The notes below the pieces were generated by a model that saw only the letters and a program-made list of their open reading frames with translations, was not told the DNA's origin and searched no databases. Made by a program: the position numbers and the translations under genes. This document shows, one piece after another, positions 9,491 through 36,368 of a stretch of DNA of 40,904 nt. This DNA is from Betaproteobacteria bacterium. Its GTDB lineage: Bacteria > Pseudomonadota > Gammaproteobacteria > Burkholderiales > Nitrosomonadaceae. Location of the stretch: the NCBI GenBank assembly GCA_004356775.1, contig SMXG01000016.1:1-40904 (forward strand), read 5' to 3'. The stretch's first letter is position 1; each line of letters starts with the position of its first letter.

Positions 9491-11631
<2,141 letters not shown>

Positions 11632-28097: not shown

Positions 28098-30180
28098 TAC
28101 GCTCTCCACGTAGGGTGGGAGTAATCAAAGTTGCGTTCGCTTCGCTTGTGGTGCGCAAACTGAGGATTTGCATCGGCGACGCCCGCGGATAAAGGCGAAC
28201 GAAATTACGCCTTCCCTGCCACTCAAATTTAGCACCAGAAAGCAGGTCATGCACCTCGTAGGGTAAATCGGGTGGTACACCAAGTTCAGCTAGAGGTAGT
28301 TCAATCCAGCCGGCTTGAACGTTATGTGGTTCAAGATTAGCTACCATGACCAAAACGTTGCCACCCGCCAATTTACTGTAGCAGAGCATGAGAGGGTTGT
28401 CGACCATGTGAAAGCGTAGGCTCCAGTCTGACTGCAAGGCAGGATTGTCGTGACGGATGTGGTTAAGGCGGGCAATATAGTCGCGCAGACTGTCAGGACA
28501 GTCGAGATCCCATTGCCGCAACTGATACTTCTCAGAATTTCGGGGTTCCTCGCTACCTGGCTCGCACGCTTCGTGTTCCATCAGCTCAAATGCTGGACCG
28601 TAGATACCATAGCTGGCACCCAAAGTCGCCGCCAGAGCCACCCGTAAAAGGAAAGCAGGTCGACCTCCATATTGCAAGAACTCGGGCAGGATGTCCGGGG
28701 TAATGGGCCATAGGTTAGGCCGAAAATACTCTCGGGAATCGTGGTGAGTAAGCTCGGTAATGTAGTCCGTCAGCTCCTGCTTGGTATTGCGCCACGTAAA
28801 ATAGGTATAAGATTGAGTGAAACCCAGTTTCGCCAGATGGTGCATGATCTTTGGCCGGGTGAAGGCCTCAGCAAGAAAAATAACTTCTGGATGCTCTGCT
28901 TTGACACCTCCAATCAACCACTCCCAGAAGGAAAAGGGCTTGGTGTGCGGATTATCCACTCGAAAGATGTGCACCCCCTCCCCGATCCAATGGTCCACTA
29001 CGCTTCTCAGTTCGTACCACAGTTCTTCCCAGCGTTCACTCTCAAAATTGAAAGAATAGATATCCTGATACTTCTTAGGGGGATTTTCCGCGTATTGGAT
29101 GCTTCCGTCCGGACGATGGTGAAACCACTCTGGGTGTTGCGCCACATAAGGATGATCCGGCGAACACTGGAAAGCAAGATCTAAGGCGACTTCGATGCCA
29201 AGCTCTCGAGCCCGCACTACCAACCGGCGGAAATCCTCAGCGCTGCCTAGTTCGGGGTGGATATCACGGTGTCCACCCTCGATGGCACCAATGGCCCATG
29301 GACTGCCGGGATCGTCTGGGCTAGTTGAAAGGCTGTTGTTGGGGCCCTTACGGAAGGTGTGGCCGATAGGGTGAATAGGCGGTAGATAAAGCACGTCGAA
29401 GCCCATAGAGACGATGTCCGGCAACCTCCCGATCAGCTGAGTGAAAGTACCGTGTGCGTTGTCTCCGGCAAGACAGGAACGAGGGAAAAGCTCATACCAG
29501 GTGGAAAAACGTGACCGCTCAATGTCCACCACCACCTCCAGTACGCGGCAGTATTCGGTAATGAAGAATCTCTCCCCATTTGTGGCCATGAGGGTAGTTA
29601 AATCTTCGCTTTGGGCTATTGCCTGCCCTGCCTCTATCGTGGTAGTAGAGTGAAGTTTGGAGGCCCAGTCCTTGAGTTCACGACTATCATCACCTCCAGC
29701 ACGTTCCGCAGCAGCACCTATCAGAGCGGCGCCAACCTGCAGAGCGACAATGATATCGTCGTCCTCCTGACGCTGAGCAAGGTCATGGCACCAGGTCAGG
29801 AAGTGATCCACGCTGGCAACGACGGTGTATTCGTGCCGGCCTACAGCATCAACAGAAAAACGGGATTGCCAGCGGTCTTTTCTCGCGGGAGTCATCAACA
29901 CCTCTACCCAGGACTGGGTTCCAGCCGGCCGATGCAGCAACAAGCAGAGCAACTGATCGTGGCCGTCGACAAAGATGTCCGCCTCAACGATCACATCCTC
30001 ACCCACGGTACGCTTGATCGGGAAGCGACCACCGTCGACTTCGGGGCTAACCCGATCGATTACCGCGCGGGTACGACCGGCTTGGGAGAGAGCGCGATTC
30101 TTTATGATGTTCCTCCACTTCTGGTTGCTGGCTTTAGGACCAGTGCCGCCAGCGGCGGAAGAGTCAACGACAGGGAACAT
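28084..30180 (-). CDS. glgE: Alpha-1,4-glucan:maltose-1-phosphate maltosyltransferase GlgE
   Basis: GlgE (GH13) adds maltosyl units from maltose-1-phosphate to alpha-1,4-glucans. Catalytic residues are Asp409 in [10 protein letters not shown] and Glu438 in FLAEAFTRP, counted from the ATG at 30180. [25 protein letters not shown] and [11 protein letters not shown] are typical. The true start is doubtful. The ATG at 30180 lies inside glgB coding sequence, though AAGG precedes it. Family length and a strong GGAGG (30112-30116) point instead to the codon at 30103-30105, which is ATA rather than ATG. With ATG there, the junction with glgB would be the ATGA overlap used elsewhere in this operon; it now reads ATAA. 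The rest of the frame is intact (673 or 698 residues). Confidence 0.93.
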
Positions 30181-32038
30181 GAATAGCCTTGGCTGACAAG
30201 AAGTGTTGCCTCGAATCGGCCAAAGTTGCTCATACCACTACCACCGTAATAATTTGCGTCGCTGTTGAGGATTTCCTCCCATTGACCGCCACGTGGTACT
30301 CCGACGATGTTGTTGTGACGCGGCATCGGGGTAAAGTTGCACACCACTAAGACGACATCGCCCAGGTAGCCGCCATAGCGCAGAAATCCTATGACGCTTT
30401 TCTTCCTGGCGCAGAAACTCACCCAGGCAAAACCGTCTGAGGTAAAATCCCTATCATGAAGTGCCGCTTGTTCGCGATAAACGTGATTGAGATCGGCCAC
30501 CCAACGCTGAACACATTCGTGCAGCAGATACTGAAGCACCTGCCATTCTAAGCTTTCCTCATGCTGCCACTCGCACTTCTGCCCGAATTCTCCACCCATG
30601 AACAGCAACTTCTTGCCGGGGTGAGTCCACATCAGGCCATAGAGCAAGCGTAGGTTAGCGAACTGCTGCCACTCGTCTCCCGGCATCTTGCTAAGGAGAG
30701 TGCCCTTACCGTACACTACCTCGTCGTGGGATAAGGGTAGGACAAAATTCTCGGTAAGGGCGTGACAAAGTCCGAAGGTGAGATGGTAGAAGCGATACTC
30801 GCGAAATAGCGGCTCCTGCTGGAAGTACTTCAGCGTATCGTGCATCCAGCCCATGTTCCACTTCATGCCAAAACCCAGGCCACCCATGCAGGTGGGACGA
30901 AACACCATGGGCCAGGCGGTGGATTCCTCGGCGATAGTCTGGATGTCCGGATAATCGCGATATACGGCTTCGTTGAGGCTGCGCAGGAAACTTATGGCTT
31001 CAAGGTTCTCGCGCCCGCCGGGGACGTTAGGTATCCACTCGCCCTCCTTTCTCCCATAATCGAGGTAGAGCATGGAGGCAACGGCATCGATGCGTAAGCC
31101 GTCCACATGGAACTTGTCGAACCAGAAAAAGGCACTGGAAATGAGGAAAGCGCGCACTTTGTGACGCCCGAAATTGAATATGGAACTTTTCCAGTCCGGG
31201 TGAAATCCTTGGTGCGAATCAACGTGCTCGTAGAGGCAGGTGCCGTCGAAGCAGAACAGGCCATGTCCGTCATCGGGAAAATGTGCAGGCGCCCAGTCGA
31301 ATATGACGCCGATGCTGGCCTGGTGCAGGGTGTCGATCAGGAACATGAGATCCTGGGGGGGCCATAGCGAGCCGTCGGGGCAAAATAACCCGTGGTCTGG
31401 TAGCCCCAGGAACCGTAAAAGGGGTGCTCCGTCAACGGAAGCAACTCCACGTGGGTAAAGCCCATCTCCTTCACATAGGACGCGAGTCGAGGCACCACCT
31501 CTCGGTAGCTGAGGAAACGGTTACCCTCCTCAGGAACACGTCGCCAGGAACCCTGATGCACCTCATAGGTGGATATGGGGGCATTAAGGGCATTGACCGT
31601 AAAGCGTCCAGCCATCCAATCCCCGTCGCTCCAAGCGTAGTCTAACTTCCAGAGGCGCGAAGCGCTGCACGGCGGCTCCTCGGCATAGCGGGCGAAAAGG
31701 TCGGCTTTCTCGGCTACCTCACCGCCGGGACCGGTAATATGAAACTTGTAGCAGTCACCTATAGCTGGCCCTGAGATGAATCCTTCCCAAAGGCCCGAGT
31801 CGTCGTCTCGGCGATGCAGAACATGATGCTCCACCTGCAAGCCGTTGAAGTCGCCGATTACCGACACGCGCGCGGCATTGGGCGCCCAAACACAAAACCG
31901 GAAACCGGCTTGGCCAGACTTTTCTGTCGCATGGCCGCCAAAATGCTCGTAGAGGCGGTCATGGGCGCCCTCGCGGAAGAGGTAGATATCGTGCTTGCTA
32001 AAGAGGGTATGCGAAAGTACGGTAGTCGTAAGGTTTAT
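30102..32038 (-). pseudogene. glgB: 1,4-alpha-glucan branching enzyme GlgB, start and frame altered
   Basis: GlgB (GH13) makes alpha-1,6 branches in glucans. The N-terminal part (KHDIYLFREGAH, GFRFCVWAPNAARVSVIGDF) is open from 32038 to the C7 tract at 31355-31361. There the frame must shift to go from [11 protein letters not shown] to [16 protein letters not shown]; eight Cs would restore it. The rest is well conserved: [15 protein letters not shown] (nucleophile), [10 protein letters not shown] (acid), [21 protein letters not shown] and the end [12 protein letters not shown]. The expected ATG at 32036-32038, 6 nt after GGAGG and overlapping the mscS stop, is ATA. No other in-frame ATG, GTG or TTG lies upstream of 31867. 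Either glgB is inactivated, or it uses AUA plus a slippery C-run. Confidence 0.9.
30112..30116 (-). promoter_or_regulatory. Ribosome binding site before ATA of glgE
   Basis: GGAGG on the minus strand, 6 nt before the ATA at 30103-30105. The spacing is the same as before glgB and ispH. It supports this codon as the ancestral or present glgE start. Confidence 0.6.
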
Positions 32039-32982
32039 CGCGTACCTCCCGGCTGCGTACCACCATCCCGAAACGGCTGCGCACCTGCTTCCTGAGATAG
32101 GTTAAAGGGCGGGCTTGAGCCATCCTTGGATTGGCCGGCATAGATCGTAAGATGGGGAAAAGGAATCTCAATACCAGCAGCGTCGAAGGCGTATTTGAGA
32201 CGACGATAATATTCTCTGCGTACTCCCCACTGCTGTATGGGCGCCACCTTGAAGCGACAGCGCAGAATTATCGCCGAGTTGGCCCATTCATTTACACCGA
32301 CGATTTCCATTTCCTCCAGGATCTTGGGGGCAAAAACCGGATCGGCACGCAACTCGGCACCCACCTCGCTCATCACCCTAAGTGCCTGATCAATATCCTC
32401 GCGATAAGCCACGCCCACATCCACCACCGCATGAGCGTGGCCGCGGGTCATGTTAGTGACTGTAGTAATGCAACCATTGGGCACGAAGTGGACGTGGCCA
32501 TCGTAGTCGCGCATCTGCACGTAGCGCAAAGTGACCTCTTCTACTATGCCGGCATGGCCGCCGACCGCGACTACGTCGCCCTCGCGAAGCTGGTTCTCCA
32601 GCAGCAGGAAGAAACCGGTGAAATAATCCTTGACGAGGCTCTGGGCGCCAAAGCCAATAGCTAGGCCCATCACGCCGGCGGCGCCGAGTATGGGTGCGAT
32701 GGAAATACCTAGTTCGCCCAGTATCACGATGCCGGTGACCAGAGAAATGAGAACCGAGGCAATGTAGCCGAACACCCGGCTGAGGGTGGCGACGCGCTTC
32801 GCCTTCTCAGCATCCTTGGAACTTTGTGCGACGCGGAAGCGAAAGGTGCTGATCAGTTTGCGGGAGAAAGCTAAGGCAACCCACCCTAGTATGGCGATGA
32901 AGACAATGCGCAGACCCGATACCATTGCTGGCGAAAACTGGTAGCCAAATAAAACTAGGTCATTTAGTGAAATTTGTCCCAT
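32035..32982 (-). CDS. Small-conductance mechanosensitive channel (MscS family)
   Basis: MscS-family channels open under membrane tension and release solutes on osmotic downshock. The 315-residue protein has an N-terminal membrane segment (about 18-40), further helices at about 70-90, and the pore-lining helix with GAAGVMGLAIGFGAQSLVKDY. The beta-domain motif EGDVVAVGGHAGIVEEVTLR and FVPNGCITTVTNMTRG are also typical. The ATG at 32982 has GGGGG upstream. It is first in the glucan/trehalose operon, which suggests osmotic stress as the operon's theme. Its stop TAA (32035-32037) overlaps the ATA that stands for the glgB start. Confidence 0.95.
   Translation of the reverse strand: MGQISLNDLVLFGYQFSPAMVSGLRIVFIAILGWVALAFSRKLISTFRFRVAQSSKDAEKAKRVATLSRVFGYIASVLISLVTGIVILGELGISIAPILGAAGVMGLAIGFGAQSLVKDYFTGFFLLLENQLREGDVVAVGGHAGIVEEVTLRYVQMRDYDGHVHFVPNGCITTVTNMTRGHAHAVVDVGVAYREDIDQALRVMSEVGAELRADPVFAPKILEEMEIVGVNEWANSAIILRCRFKVAPIQQWGVRREYYRRLKYAFDAAGIEIPFPHLTIYAGQSKDGSSPPFNLSQEAGAQPFRDGGTQPGGTR
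32045..32049 (-). promoter_or_regulatory. Ribosome binding site before ATA of glgB
   Basis: GGAGG on the minus strand inside the last codons of mscS, 6 nt before the ATA at 32036-32038. A G at 32036 in place of A would recreate an ATGA stop/start overlap with mscS ending in TGA. Confidence 0.6.
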
Positions 32983-33206
32983 TACTGTTCCCCCTGTTCA
33001 CTGTATAGTATAAGAAAATTCTTGATTGTTATGTTTGTGTTAAAGATTATGGCCAAAAATGATCATTCAAGCAAGCTAAGGGGCAGACAGCAGTAGGAGG
33101 AGGAAAGAGAAATCTCGTTTTCACCAACTTAGCCTAATGAACAACCCAGATAGGCACAGCAAGCAAACAACTGTACGAGAAAATATAAATTCTGGACCGT
33201 TAATTC

Positions 33207-33235
33207 TTGCTATTCAAGAAACCCAAGCGTATACT
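33207..33235 (+). promoter_or_regulatory. Sigma-70-type promoter of umuDC
   Basis: TTGCTA (33207-33212) and TATACT (33230-33235) are separated by exactly 17 bp, a good match to the sigma-70 pattern, 31 bp upstream of the umuD start. An inverted repeat TTCTTG-N5-CAAGAA (33204-33220) covers the -35 side. Confidence 0.65.
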
Positions 33236-33259
33236 TGATTACTTGTTACATAATCAAGT
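33233..33259. promoter_or_regulatory. Palindromic operator candidate upstream of umuD
   Basis: ACTTGATTA-N9-TAATCAAGT is a perfect 9-bp inverted repeat that overlaps the -10 element and the expected transcription start, ending 6 bp before the umuD ATG. It is not a LexA box (CTGT-N8-ACAG). Its position is right for a repressor-binding site. Confidence 0.6.
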
Positions 33260-33265
33260 TGCACG

Positions 33266-33865
33266 ATGAACAACACTATAAAAACCCATGGTGGCAGGCG
33301 CCCAGGAGCCGGGCGTAAACCTGGCAATAGTGCGACTCAACCCACTACAGTCATACGTGTTCCGGTAAACACAGCCGAAACCATCAAGGACTTTGTTTCT
33401 GCCCTAAAAAAGAAGCACACGTTACAGGGACGGGCTGGTGTTGTTGATCTGATCCAATTCGCACAAGCTAAGCAACGTGTCATTCTTCCACTCTATACGT
33501 CGAAGGTGTCTGCCGGTTTCCCGTCCCCAGCTGATGACCACGTCGAACAGCGGCTCAATCCAAGCGACTATCTCGTGAAAAACGATACTGCAACCTTCTT
33601 CGTACGCGCCAAAGGTGACTCAATGATAGAGGTCGGTATCTTTGATAATGACGTGCTGGTTATTGATCGTTCTAGAACTCCGCAGACTGGTGACATCGTC
33701 CTTGCGGTGCTGGACGGCGAATTTACCGTGAAAACTCTGGGTCGGTCTAGAAAAAGCGTGAAGCTTATCCCGGCCAACCGGAACTACCCTGTCATTGAAA
33801 TCAAGAAAGGCCAGTCACTTGAAATCTGGGGTGTTGTCACTGGCTCCATGCGCAAATTCAAATGA
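33266..33865 (+). CDS. umuD: Error-prone polymerase V subunit UmuD (S24 peptidase family)
   Basis: UmuD cleaves itself with RecA help to UmuD', the partner of UmuC in translesion polymerase V. The 199 residues include an N-terminal extension with [13 protein letters not shown] (about 8-20), a basic AT-hook-like motif, before the peptidase part. The Ala83-Gly84 cleavage site is in [17 protein letters not shown]. The active-site pair is Ser119 (GDSM) and Lys156 (EFTVK). E. coli UmuD is about 139 residues and lacks such an extension. The gene overlaps umuC as ATGA. The promoter carries a strong palindrome but no recognisable LexA box. Confidence 0.93.
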
Positions 33866-35151
33866 GTCACTCCATCACTCTCGTTGACTGCAACAACTTT
33901 TACGTTAGTTGCGAGCGAGTATTTAACCCAAAGTTAGAAGGTAAACCAGTGGTAGTACTTTCCAATAATGACGGCTGTGCGATTGCCAGAAGCGATGAGG
34001 TGAAGGCACTCGGTGTGAAAATGGGGCAACCTTGGTTTCAGTTTAAAGACTTAGCAAGAAAACATGGCATCATCGCTTACTCTTCCAATTATGCGCTCTA
34101 CGCCGATATGTCCAATCGAGTAATGAACATTCTCTCCGAGTTCAGTCCTAATCAAGAGGTGTATTCCATTGATGAATGCTTCCTCGACCTCACAGGGTCC
34201 TGTAGATACAACCTGACTGACCATGTGCAGAGAATTCGCAAGCGCATCCGGCAACAGACGGGATTACCTGTATGCGTAGGAATTGGAACATCCAAGACAC
34301 TAGCGAAACTCGCGAACCATATCGCCAAGAAAAACTCACAGTTCCAAGGCGTGTGTGACCTCAACGCGATGACAACACAGGAACAAAATAAATGGCTACA
34401 CAAGATTAAAATTGGAAAAGTATGGGGCATCGGTAAGCAGCTTGCACCAAAGTTGCGGCAGATCGGAATTTATAACGCACTCGATCTGAAACATGCTAAT
34501 CCAGAAACGCTGAATTTGCGGTTTTCGGTGTTGTTGAAGAAAACTATCCACGAGCTTAATGATGTAATCTGTATTGAATTGGAAGAAATAGTCTCTCCCA
34601 AGAAACAAATAATTTGCTCCCGCTCCTTCGGTGTGCCGGTGACTGACCTCGAAAGTCTGGAGCAATCCGTTGTCCTCTATGTTAGCCGTGCTGCCGAGAA
34701 ACTACGCCAACAGAATTCCTATGCGGGGTCAATCCACGTCTACATCCGCACTAGCCCGTTCAACAAGAAAGAACCTTACTACGCCAACAGCATGACTATC
34801 CCATTACCGGAACAAACAGACGATACCTTGGTACTTATTCGGGCCGCATCATGGGGACTACGTAAGATTTACCATGACGGATGCAAATACCAAAAGGCAG
34901 GGGTTATGCTATCCAAACTCGTGTCGGATGAAGAACGACAACCTGACCTGTTTGGTAAAGAAAAGGTGCGGAGCAAGTCAAACAATCTGATGATGGTACT
35001 AGATCAGGTCAATGCACTGATGGGAAGAAAAACGCTGGCAATCGCCGCCGAGGGCATCATACAACCATGGAAGATGAAACAGAGCAACAGAAGTCCGAGA
35101 TATACGACTAGCTGGGATGATTTGATAGCGGTTAATCACAATTTAATATAA
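33862..35151 (+). CDS. umuC: Error-prone polymerase V catalytic subunit UmuC
   Basis: UmuC is the Y-family polymerase subunit that, with UmuD', copies past lesions. Metal ligands are Asp9 in [15 protein letters not shown] and Asp104/Glu105 in [30 protein letters not shown] and [12 protein letters not shown] follow, then the little-finger region. The C-terminus has [20 protein letters not shown] and [19 protein letters not shown], as in complete UmuC. The 429 residues are normal. The ATG overlaps the umuD stop, so the two are translationally coupled. Confidence 0.97.
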
Positions 35152-35418: not shown

Positions 35419-35423
35419 GGGAG
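35419..35423 (+). promoter_or_regulatory. Ribosome binding site before ATA of ispH
   Basis: GGGAG lies with 6-nt spacing before the ATA at 35430-35432, which is exactly where the conserved IspH start falls. It strongly favours initiation at that codon over the GTG at 35472. Confidence 0.7.
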
Positions 35424-35429
35424 AGTGAC

Positions 35430-36368
35430 ATAGAGGCCATACTTGCTAACCCCAGAGGATTCTGTGCGGGCGTGGTACGCGCCGTAGAAATCGTCGAGCA
35501 TGCACTGGTACTTTATGGAGCGCCAATCTATGTACTGCACCAGATCGTACACAATCAGCAGGTAATCCACGATTTGGAGGAACGTGGGGTCATTTTTACC
35601 GAGGACATGAAAAGTATCCCACCTGGCACGGTAACCGTGCTAAGTGCCCATGGCGTATCCGACGCCGTTATGGAAGCTGCCCGTACCCAAGATCTAGAAA
35701 TTATCGACGCAACTTGCCCGCTAGTTACCAAGGTACATATACAAGCTCAACGTTATAGCAAAGAGGGGTACGAGGTGGTGATCATCGGCCATCGGGGCCA
35801 TGTTGAGGTAGAAGGAACCTATGGACGAGTGCGTGGAACGGTACATGTGGTTGGCTCTGTAGAAGATGTCCAAGCCTTGGTGGTTTATAATCCGAACCGG
35901 GTAGCCTACGTCACCCAGACTACCCTCAGTCTGGATGATACACGCTCCATAGTGCAGGCCCTGAAAAATCGCTTTCCGGACGTACATGGCCCTGAGTTAT
36001 CAGACATCTGCTATGCGACACAAAATCGTCAGAACGCCGTGCGAAACCTTGCCACAAAAGTTGATGTAATCCTGGTGGTGGGTGCGCGAAATAGTTCCAA
36101 CTCATCGCGTTTACAAGAAGTAGGTAAAATGAGTGGTGTGGATGCCTATCTAATTCAGGATGCGGATGAAATTTCACCGAATTGGTTTGTTAATGGCTCA
36201 CGAATCGGCATAACTGCCGGTGCTTCTACTCCTGAGGTATTGGTGCAAGGTGTTCTCGATCGTTTGCGGAAGCTTGGAGTAAACAGTATCCACGAGATGG
36301 AAGGAGTGACTGAAGATATCACGTTCAAGCTCCCGACAACACTATTACGGCACCAGGAATCGCTATAA
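35430..36368 (+). CDS. ispH: 4-hydroxy-3-methylbut-2-enyl diphosphate reductase
   Basis: IspH reduces HMBPP to IPP and DMAPP, the last step of the MEP isoprenoid pathway, with a [4Fe-4S] cluster held by three cysteines. These are in RGFCAGV (residue 12), DATCPLVTKVH and DICYATQNRQ. The SSN motif (NSSNSSRL) and EVEGT are also present. The frame upstream of the GTG at 35472 reads [ATA] EAILANPRGFCAG. No ATG, GTG or TTG occurs between the preceding in-frame stop and that GTG, which lies after the first cysteine. I therefore place the start at ATA 35430. Some normally conserved positions differ (GVVRA for GVDRA, GHVEVEG for GHPEVEG). It may be a second, hopanoid-linked ispH copy, possibly weakened. 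Confidence 0.9.
   Translation: MEAILANPRGFCAGVVRAVEIVEHALVLYGAPIYVLHQIVHNQQVIHDLEERGVIFTEDMKSIPPGTVTVLSAHGVSDAVMEAARTQDLEIIDATCPLVTKVHIQAQRYSKEGYEVVIIGHRGHVEVEGTYGRVRGTVHVVGSVEDVQALVVYNPNRVAYVTQTTLSLDDTRSIVQALKNRFPDVHGPELSDICYATQNRQNAVRNLATKVDVILVVGARNSSNSSRLQEVGKMSGVDAYLIQDADEISPNWFVNGSRIGITAGASTPEVLVQGVLDRLRKLGVNSIHEMEGVTEDITFKLPTTLLRHQESL

Follow-up and report, generated by a model that had tools for sequence, protein, structure and literature searches.

The closest described relative of the system analysed here is UmuDAb of Acinetobacter, whose host has been published as lacking LexA. According to the accessible text of one report, the UmuDAb operator is TTGA(N4)GTWAC(N4)TCAA, its core outweighs its arms, and the core with one arm is enough for binding in vitro (PMC11332147). 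In A. baylyi, the operator was given as AACTTGAA(N11)TTCAAGTT and was required for repression (PMC4807011). The N-terminal domain of UmuDAb is needed for repression and mutants of this domain bind less well (PMC4807011, PMC11332147); E24 and K40-N41 are the residues that were mutated as HTH1 and HTH2, respectively (PMC11332147). UmuDAb monomers bind and repress poorly (PMC11332147), and UmuDAb failed to complement E. coli umuD (PMC4807011). Control of the UmuDAb type has been reported in Moraxellaceae, and takeovers of polymerase control by S24 proteins were treated as convergent in the accessible part of that paper (PMC8565304). The Francisella repressor is a different, phage-type protein (PMC13148647). 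Among open-licence papers, our literature search found no such system described in Nitrosomonadaceae and no UmuDAb-like repressor outside Moraxellaceae.

The window, which is the whole stretch of 40,904 nucleotides analysed here, is one contig (C69) of a Nitrosomonadaceae genome of 1.76 Mb that is 88% complete. It carries umuDC as a single operon with an intact umuC, and UmuD is of an extended form, as seen in Table 1. This UmuD shares with UmuDAb a homologous N-terminal domain, an S24 domain with Ala83-Gly84, Ser119 and Lys156, a site at its own promoter in which TTGA and TCAA arms flank a GTWAC core, and a host in which no LexA was found. The GTTAC(N4)TCAA half of the window's site is identical to the Acinetobacter operator, whereas the left arm lies two bases further out, making the site 23 bp with N6/N4 spacing compared to 21 bp with N4/N4. 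UmuDAb works with DdrR; in contrast, no ddrR-like gene adjoins umuD at this locus, where the search was made, and the site was found only at its own operon. The divergent neighbour of umuD (32035-32982) matches MscS families. Another difference is that no S24 protein besides UmuD was found in the host genome at its 88% completeness, so the same protein probably also feeds UmuC.

Other known proteins are less similar. E. coli UmuD and plasmid MucA share the S24 domain and the umuDC operon with the window but lack the extension, and the unextended MucA gene of L059 is preceded by an exact LexA box, CTGT-N8-ACAG. The RumA-type umuD genes of pFK2-7 (L061) and pARA1 (L057) carry the same extension, and TTTGATTTTGTSACAAAATCAAA directly precedes their start codons; unlike the window's gene, they are plasmid-borne with a 21-bp operator and a GTnAC core. 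LexA has in common with the window's UmuD the S24 domain, the Ala-Gly cleavage site and the proposed logic of self-repression, but the window's UmuD lacks the PF01726 winged helix and its operator is unlike CTGT-N8-ACAG.

Table 1. Features of the umuDC region, in window positions, and of survey loci with a nuclease gene behind extended umuD
Feature	Position	Strand	Remarks
site 1, TTCTTG-N5-CAAGAA	33204..33220	.	contains -35
sigma-70-like umuDC promoter	33207..33235	+	-35 TTGCTA 33207-33212, -10 TATACT 33230-33235, N17 between
site 2, predicted UmuD operator, ACTTGATTA-N9-TAATCAAGT	33233..33259	.	21 of 27 columns invariant in 6 genomes
umuD	33266..33865	+	199 aa, extended form; S24 catalytic S119 and K156
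UmuD N-terminal part	33266..33514	+	to predicted cleavage site Ala83-Gly84; homologous to UmuDAb N-terminal domain
predicted UmuD' (residues 84-199)	33515..33862	+	model closest to E. coli UmuD'
umuC	33862..35151	+	429 aa; overlaps umuD stop (ATGA); above NCBIfam UmuC cut-off
extended umuD and RNase_T/GIY-YIG gene	L029:92-1501, L035:113-1501		13 further loci likewise

Three other observations were made in the window. Two adjacent ORFs on the minus strand (30102-31346 and 31337-31867) match consecutive parts of the glycogen branching enzyme GlgB and represent a split gene, a frameshifted gene or an assembly error. In ispH (35419-35474), the first usual in-frame start codon is a GTG at 35472 and the best family match begins at profile position 16; the coding sequence of the conserved N-terminus seems to open with an ATA codon at 35430, downstream of GGGAGAG, instead of ATG, GTG or TTG. 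Long perfect palindromes were also present, ATATGTAACGTTACATAT at 11018-11035 and TTTAATGACACGTGTGTCATTAAA at 11437-11460.

Promoter and palindromes in front of umuDC

A preliminary description of this DNA had claimed a good promoter covered by two palindromes, with no LexA box. The promoter and both palindromes were confirmed (Table 1), and no CTGT-N8-ACAG lies over the promoter even when 2 mismatches are allowed; the closest match at that level, with 2 mismatches, is at 33171. The promoter matches 9 of 12 consensus positions and is unremarkable alone, since one was found in 400 bp compared to 0.7 expected in shuffles. In five genomes of relatives, the umuDC promoter has TTGCCA as -35 and TAAACT as -10.

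The description had also taken a CTTG/CAAG core as the unit shared by the two palindromes. The actual unit is TTGA...GTTAC...TCAA and occurs in site 2 only, where TTGA (33235-33238), N6, GTTAC (33245-33249), N4 and TCAA (33254-33257) lie inside ACTTGAT...ATCAAGT. Site 2 takes in the end of the -10 as well as the predicted transcription start, and it ends 6 bases before the umuD start codon. A perfect 9-bp inverted repeat with a spacer of up to 20 arose in 19 of 2000 dinucleotide shuffles of 33101-33266 (about 1%). The 6-bp repeat of site 1 at spacer 5 arose in 86 of 2000 (about 4%). Across the window, perfect 9-bp inverted repeats gave 11 matches at 7 places (shuffle mean 2.4, maximum 5). The palindromes alone are unconvincing as sequence, and their weight comes from comparison.

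Six of the eight genus genomes have umuD, and all six have site 2 in front of it. With up to 3 mismatches, the site-2 pattern has one match in each of these six genomes, always just before umuD, and the same motif at all SOS genes, which the description had named as evidence against its idea, was not seen. Of the two genus genomes without umuD, one had no match to the pattern and the other had a single one with 3 mismatches. In the host genome, CTTGATT-N11-AATCAAG was matched 170 times when up to 3 mismatches were allowed, compared to 73 times for the reversed control, and only the window's place was exact. Two outgroup promoters, L101 and L102, whose UmuD proteins are 65% and 52% identical, keep most of site 2, including GTTAC.

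A position weight matrix was built from 26 sites outside the family. These had been picked with the TTGA/TCAA rule when the window and the literature were already known, so that the matrix tests the flanks, the core and the rank and not the discovery of the rule. It placed 33235 first in 40.9 kb with a score of 30.8, compared to 14.4 for the next place and 5.9-20.6 for the maxima of 15 shuffles. Using the arms only, the scores were 25.8 and 16.4. On these comparisons taken together, site 2 is very probably a real operator.

The idea that site 1 is a second operator of the same kind was not supported: compared to a UmuDAb-type operator, it lacks the GTnAC core and its spacing is wrong. It is missing from both outgroup promoters, where hardly anything beyond the TTG of the -35 is retained. 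Site 2 persists in L101 and L102 while site 1 does not, so site 2 is the older element. Within the genus, TCTTGCYATTCAA is conserved, and TTCTTG-N5-CAAGAA occurs at one further place in the host genome (C10:2512-2528). Judging from these alignments, site 1 is mostly the -35 region in a conserved setting.

UmuD, its extension and LexA

The S24 domain of UmuD (PF00717, E 4.7e-31) covers residues 75-191. The approximately 74 residues before it had no Pfam match to a DNA-binding family, and no such family was found in 56 members. The extension carries the motifs PTTVIRVP...IKDF. Its profile aligned with the Acinetobacter profile at an hhalign probability of 98.7 (E 4.3e-16, 44 columns), and BLASTP gave 46% over 37 aa between the extension and UmuDAb. 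K41, the counterpart of UmuDAb K40, is invariant in the family set, and A83, G84, S119 and K156 are invariant among 56 extended relatives. The AlphaFold model (mean pLDDT 78.0, pTM 0.50) has high confidence in the S24 part and low pLDDT at residues 1-30 and 51-100, with helices at 34-53 and 59-67 before the S24 part. A VIA fold search with residues 96-199 only found E. coli UmuD' to be closest (Z 18.4, rmsd 1.4, 108 aligned). A ribbon-helix-helix fold, with the strand RVP followed by a helix, was considered for the extension, and several short members seem to have no room for the second helix.

No LexA (PF01726) was found in the eight genus genomes, two of which are 99% complete. Among 19 family genomes (G000-G018), there were only two PF01726 hits, both weak: one narrowly passed the cut-off and the other fell below it. 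The domain was not among the Pfam hits of the window's UmuD up to E 1 and was absent from the 56 extended members. A recA gene is present in the host genome (G000:C21:1-207), where it is cut by the contig end. The preliminary proposal that a repressor distinct from LexA acts here, possibly UmuD in its extended form, is supported for site 2 by the lack of LexA in the genus set and by UmuD being the lone S24 protein found.

Survey of UmuD loci across taxa

We collected 145 UmuD loci: 30 from a family search, 7 from plasmid records, 28 from a class-wide search of 369 genomes and 80 from named contigs. All were found with this protein family as the query, and relatives of the family are overweighted in the counts. 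L019 (stop inside), L082 (contig end) and L166 were left out, leaving 142 loci, 115 of them extended and 27 unextended. Ten of the 145 loci without a recognised core were kept and assigned by hand, L142 was classed as extended, and a corrected start was used for L151. Extended UmuDs occur in many Proteobacteria, on plasmids, and on contigs labelled Planctomycetes, Verrucomicrobia and Actinobacteria, these being metagenome-bin labels taken as given.

An exact TTGA-N13-15-TCAA within 75 bp upstream was found at 65 of the 115 extended genes (dinucleotide shuffles 1.10, maximum 3), leaving 50 without it, and at none of the 27 unextended genes (shuffles 0.20). When the set was collapsed at 65% identity, the exact site stood before 20 of 45 extended genes (shuffles 0.20, maximum 1) and 0 of 14 unextended ones, and the spacers peaked at 13-15. 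When the arms, 12 positions in all, were allowed up to 2 mismatches, the counts rose to 98/115 (shuffles 12.8) and 2/27 (shuffles 2.2). Under a preliminary class assignment with spacers of 12-16, the exact site was present at 60 of 104 extended and 0 of 31 unextended genes. An exact LexA box (CTGT-N8-ACAG) within 130 bp upstream was seen at 1/115 extended and 5/27 unextended genes. L017, a family member with no recognisable extension whose UmuD is 68% identical over residues 60-199, has no TTGA-N12-16-TCAA in 460 bp. The S24 tree is poorly resolved; the best tree implies 8 changes in the extension, and supported branches imply 2. A tree-controlled pair test was not significant, with only 2 supported pairs, which puts significance out of reach. 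The sequence counts support the view that extension and operator go together across taxa. This association and the homology of the extension to that of UmuDAb both favour the extended UmuD as the repressor, as the preliminary description had proposed. Two survey loci, L157 (A. beijerinckii) and L176 (A. dispersus), match the published landmarks of UmuDAb (203 aa, Ala83-Gly84, E24, K40-N41, and a divergently oriented ORF of some 75 codons) and have ACTTGAATTTGTAACTTTTTCAAGT as operator.

A PF01726 hit was found in 16 of 62 genomes with extended UmuD compared to 10 of 16 with unextended UmuD (Fisher p 0.008, kinship uncorrected, one duplicate genome dropped). Since 16 of the 62 also have a LexA hit, the extended-UmuD system is not simply a LexA replacement.

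By tblastn, 74 of the 110 extended genes with enough downstream sequence were followed by a umuC relative; a short regex had undercounted these (62/110), and the tblastn count was used. The other 36 (e.g. L062, L073, L083, L127, L136 and L165) had no umuC relative in 1.5 kb downstream, and the neighbours of extended umuD without umuC were varied in the nine loci checked. A gene that combines an RNase_T exonuclease domain with a GIY-YIG domain follows umuD at 15 of 137 loci and usually overlaps its stop codon; the umuD of all 15 is of the extended form. Seven of these 15 had no umuC in the stretch searched; among the seven, TTGA-N15-TCAA is exact in L029 and L035, and the other five have a degenerate arm. 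For an extended UmuD that heads a repair-nuclease operon, a role as regulator makes the most sense.

At up to 1 mismatch, TTGAATNNNGTNACNNATNTCAA was found at 77 places in 125 family genomes compared to 1 for the reversed control. Thirty of these places were inspected: 15 are at extended umuD (11 seen directly; L197, L201, L202 and L207 by coordinates), 12 are inside unrelated ORFs and 3 are neither. A wider regulon in the family was considered and rejected as there was no sign of one among the 30, though the places away from umuD exceed the reversed control.

Proposed control of umuDC and alternative explanations

It is likely, judging from site and protein comparisons, that the extended UmuD uses site 2 as its operator; it would repress its own umuDC and be inactivated by RecA-stimulated self-cleavage. 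A UmuD dimer, held together by the S24 domain, would place its basic N-terminal domains on TTGA(N6)GTTAC(N4)TCAA. On site 2, it would cover the end of the -10 and the transcription start and keep RNA polymerase off umuDC; because of this overlap, binding should block initiation. After DNA damage, RecA filaments would stimulate self-cleavage at Ala83-Gly84, parting the DNA-binding domain from the dimerisation domain and lifting repression. The poor binding and repression by UmuDAb monomers fit such a release of the DNA-binding part from the dimerising S24 domain. The same cleavage step would yield UmuD', the Pol V subunit, so that one protein is probably repressor, damage sensor and polymerase subunit. 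We infer the binding, the repression, the cleavage and the double role, and for the block at the promoter we rely on the position of the site and on the Acinetobacter work. The double role may not hold because UmuDAb did not complement E. coli umuD.

One possible alternative is that both palindromes are operators bridged by one repressor. The conservation of site 1 in the genus would agree with this, with 12 of 17 columns invariant in the six genomes compared to 9 of 61 upstream. However, much of site 1 is the -35, the palindrome is perfect in only 2 of 6 genomes and has no GTnAC core, and L101 and L102 retain site 2 without site 1, which makes bridging unlikely. N-termini of UmuD proteins are known to carry protease signals. 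The extension could thus serve in protease recognition or in UmuC binding, for example, while a repressor outside the S24 family binds site 2. This is somewhat less likely still, since the operator is present in 20 of 45 clusters with the extension (shuffles 0.2) and in 0 of 14 without it, and the homologous domain of UmuDAb is needed for repression and binds less well when mutated (PMC4807011, PMC11332147).

Another explanation is that a divergent LexA, or an S24 repressor of the phage type, occupies the site and has its gene in the 12% of the host genome that is missing. Incompleteness leaves room for such a gene, but it is very improbable given that PF01726 was found in none of the eight genus genomes, two of them 99% complete, and that the motif fits the UmuDAb operator and not CTGT-N8-ACAG. 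Chance is scarcely credible as the origin of the palindromes: even though 9-bp inverted repeats occur at 7 places in the window, the position and sequence are conserved in 6/6 genomes and a motif model from outside the family recovers site 2.

Self-repression by the extended UmuD through site 2 is the reading we prefer for this locus. For the wider group, it is moderately likely that a widespread family of extended UmuDs, UmuDAb included, regulates itself through a LexA-independent TTGA-GTnAC-TCAA operator, with one protein acting as repressor, sensor and subunit as proposed here, and that in Nitrosomonas the module also heads DnaQ/GIY-YIG operons. Compared to the literature, what is probably new is a system outside Moraxellaceae, with no adjacent ddrR, in which one protein would be both repressor and polymerase subunit. 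That a betaproteobacterium in which no LexA was found, and many other taxa, share this N-terminal domain and operator with UmuDAb suggests that the family is wider than the literature recognises. In the one-protein design, de-repression and polymerase activation would be the same chemical step. This provides a concrete hypothesis for how bacteria without LexA, nitrifiers included, may keep their mutagenic polymerases off.
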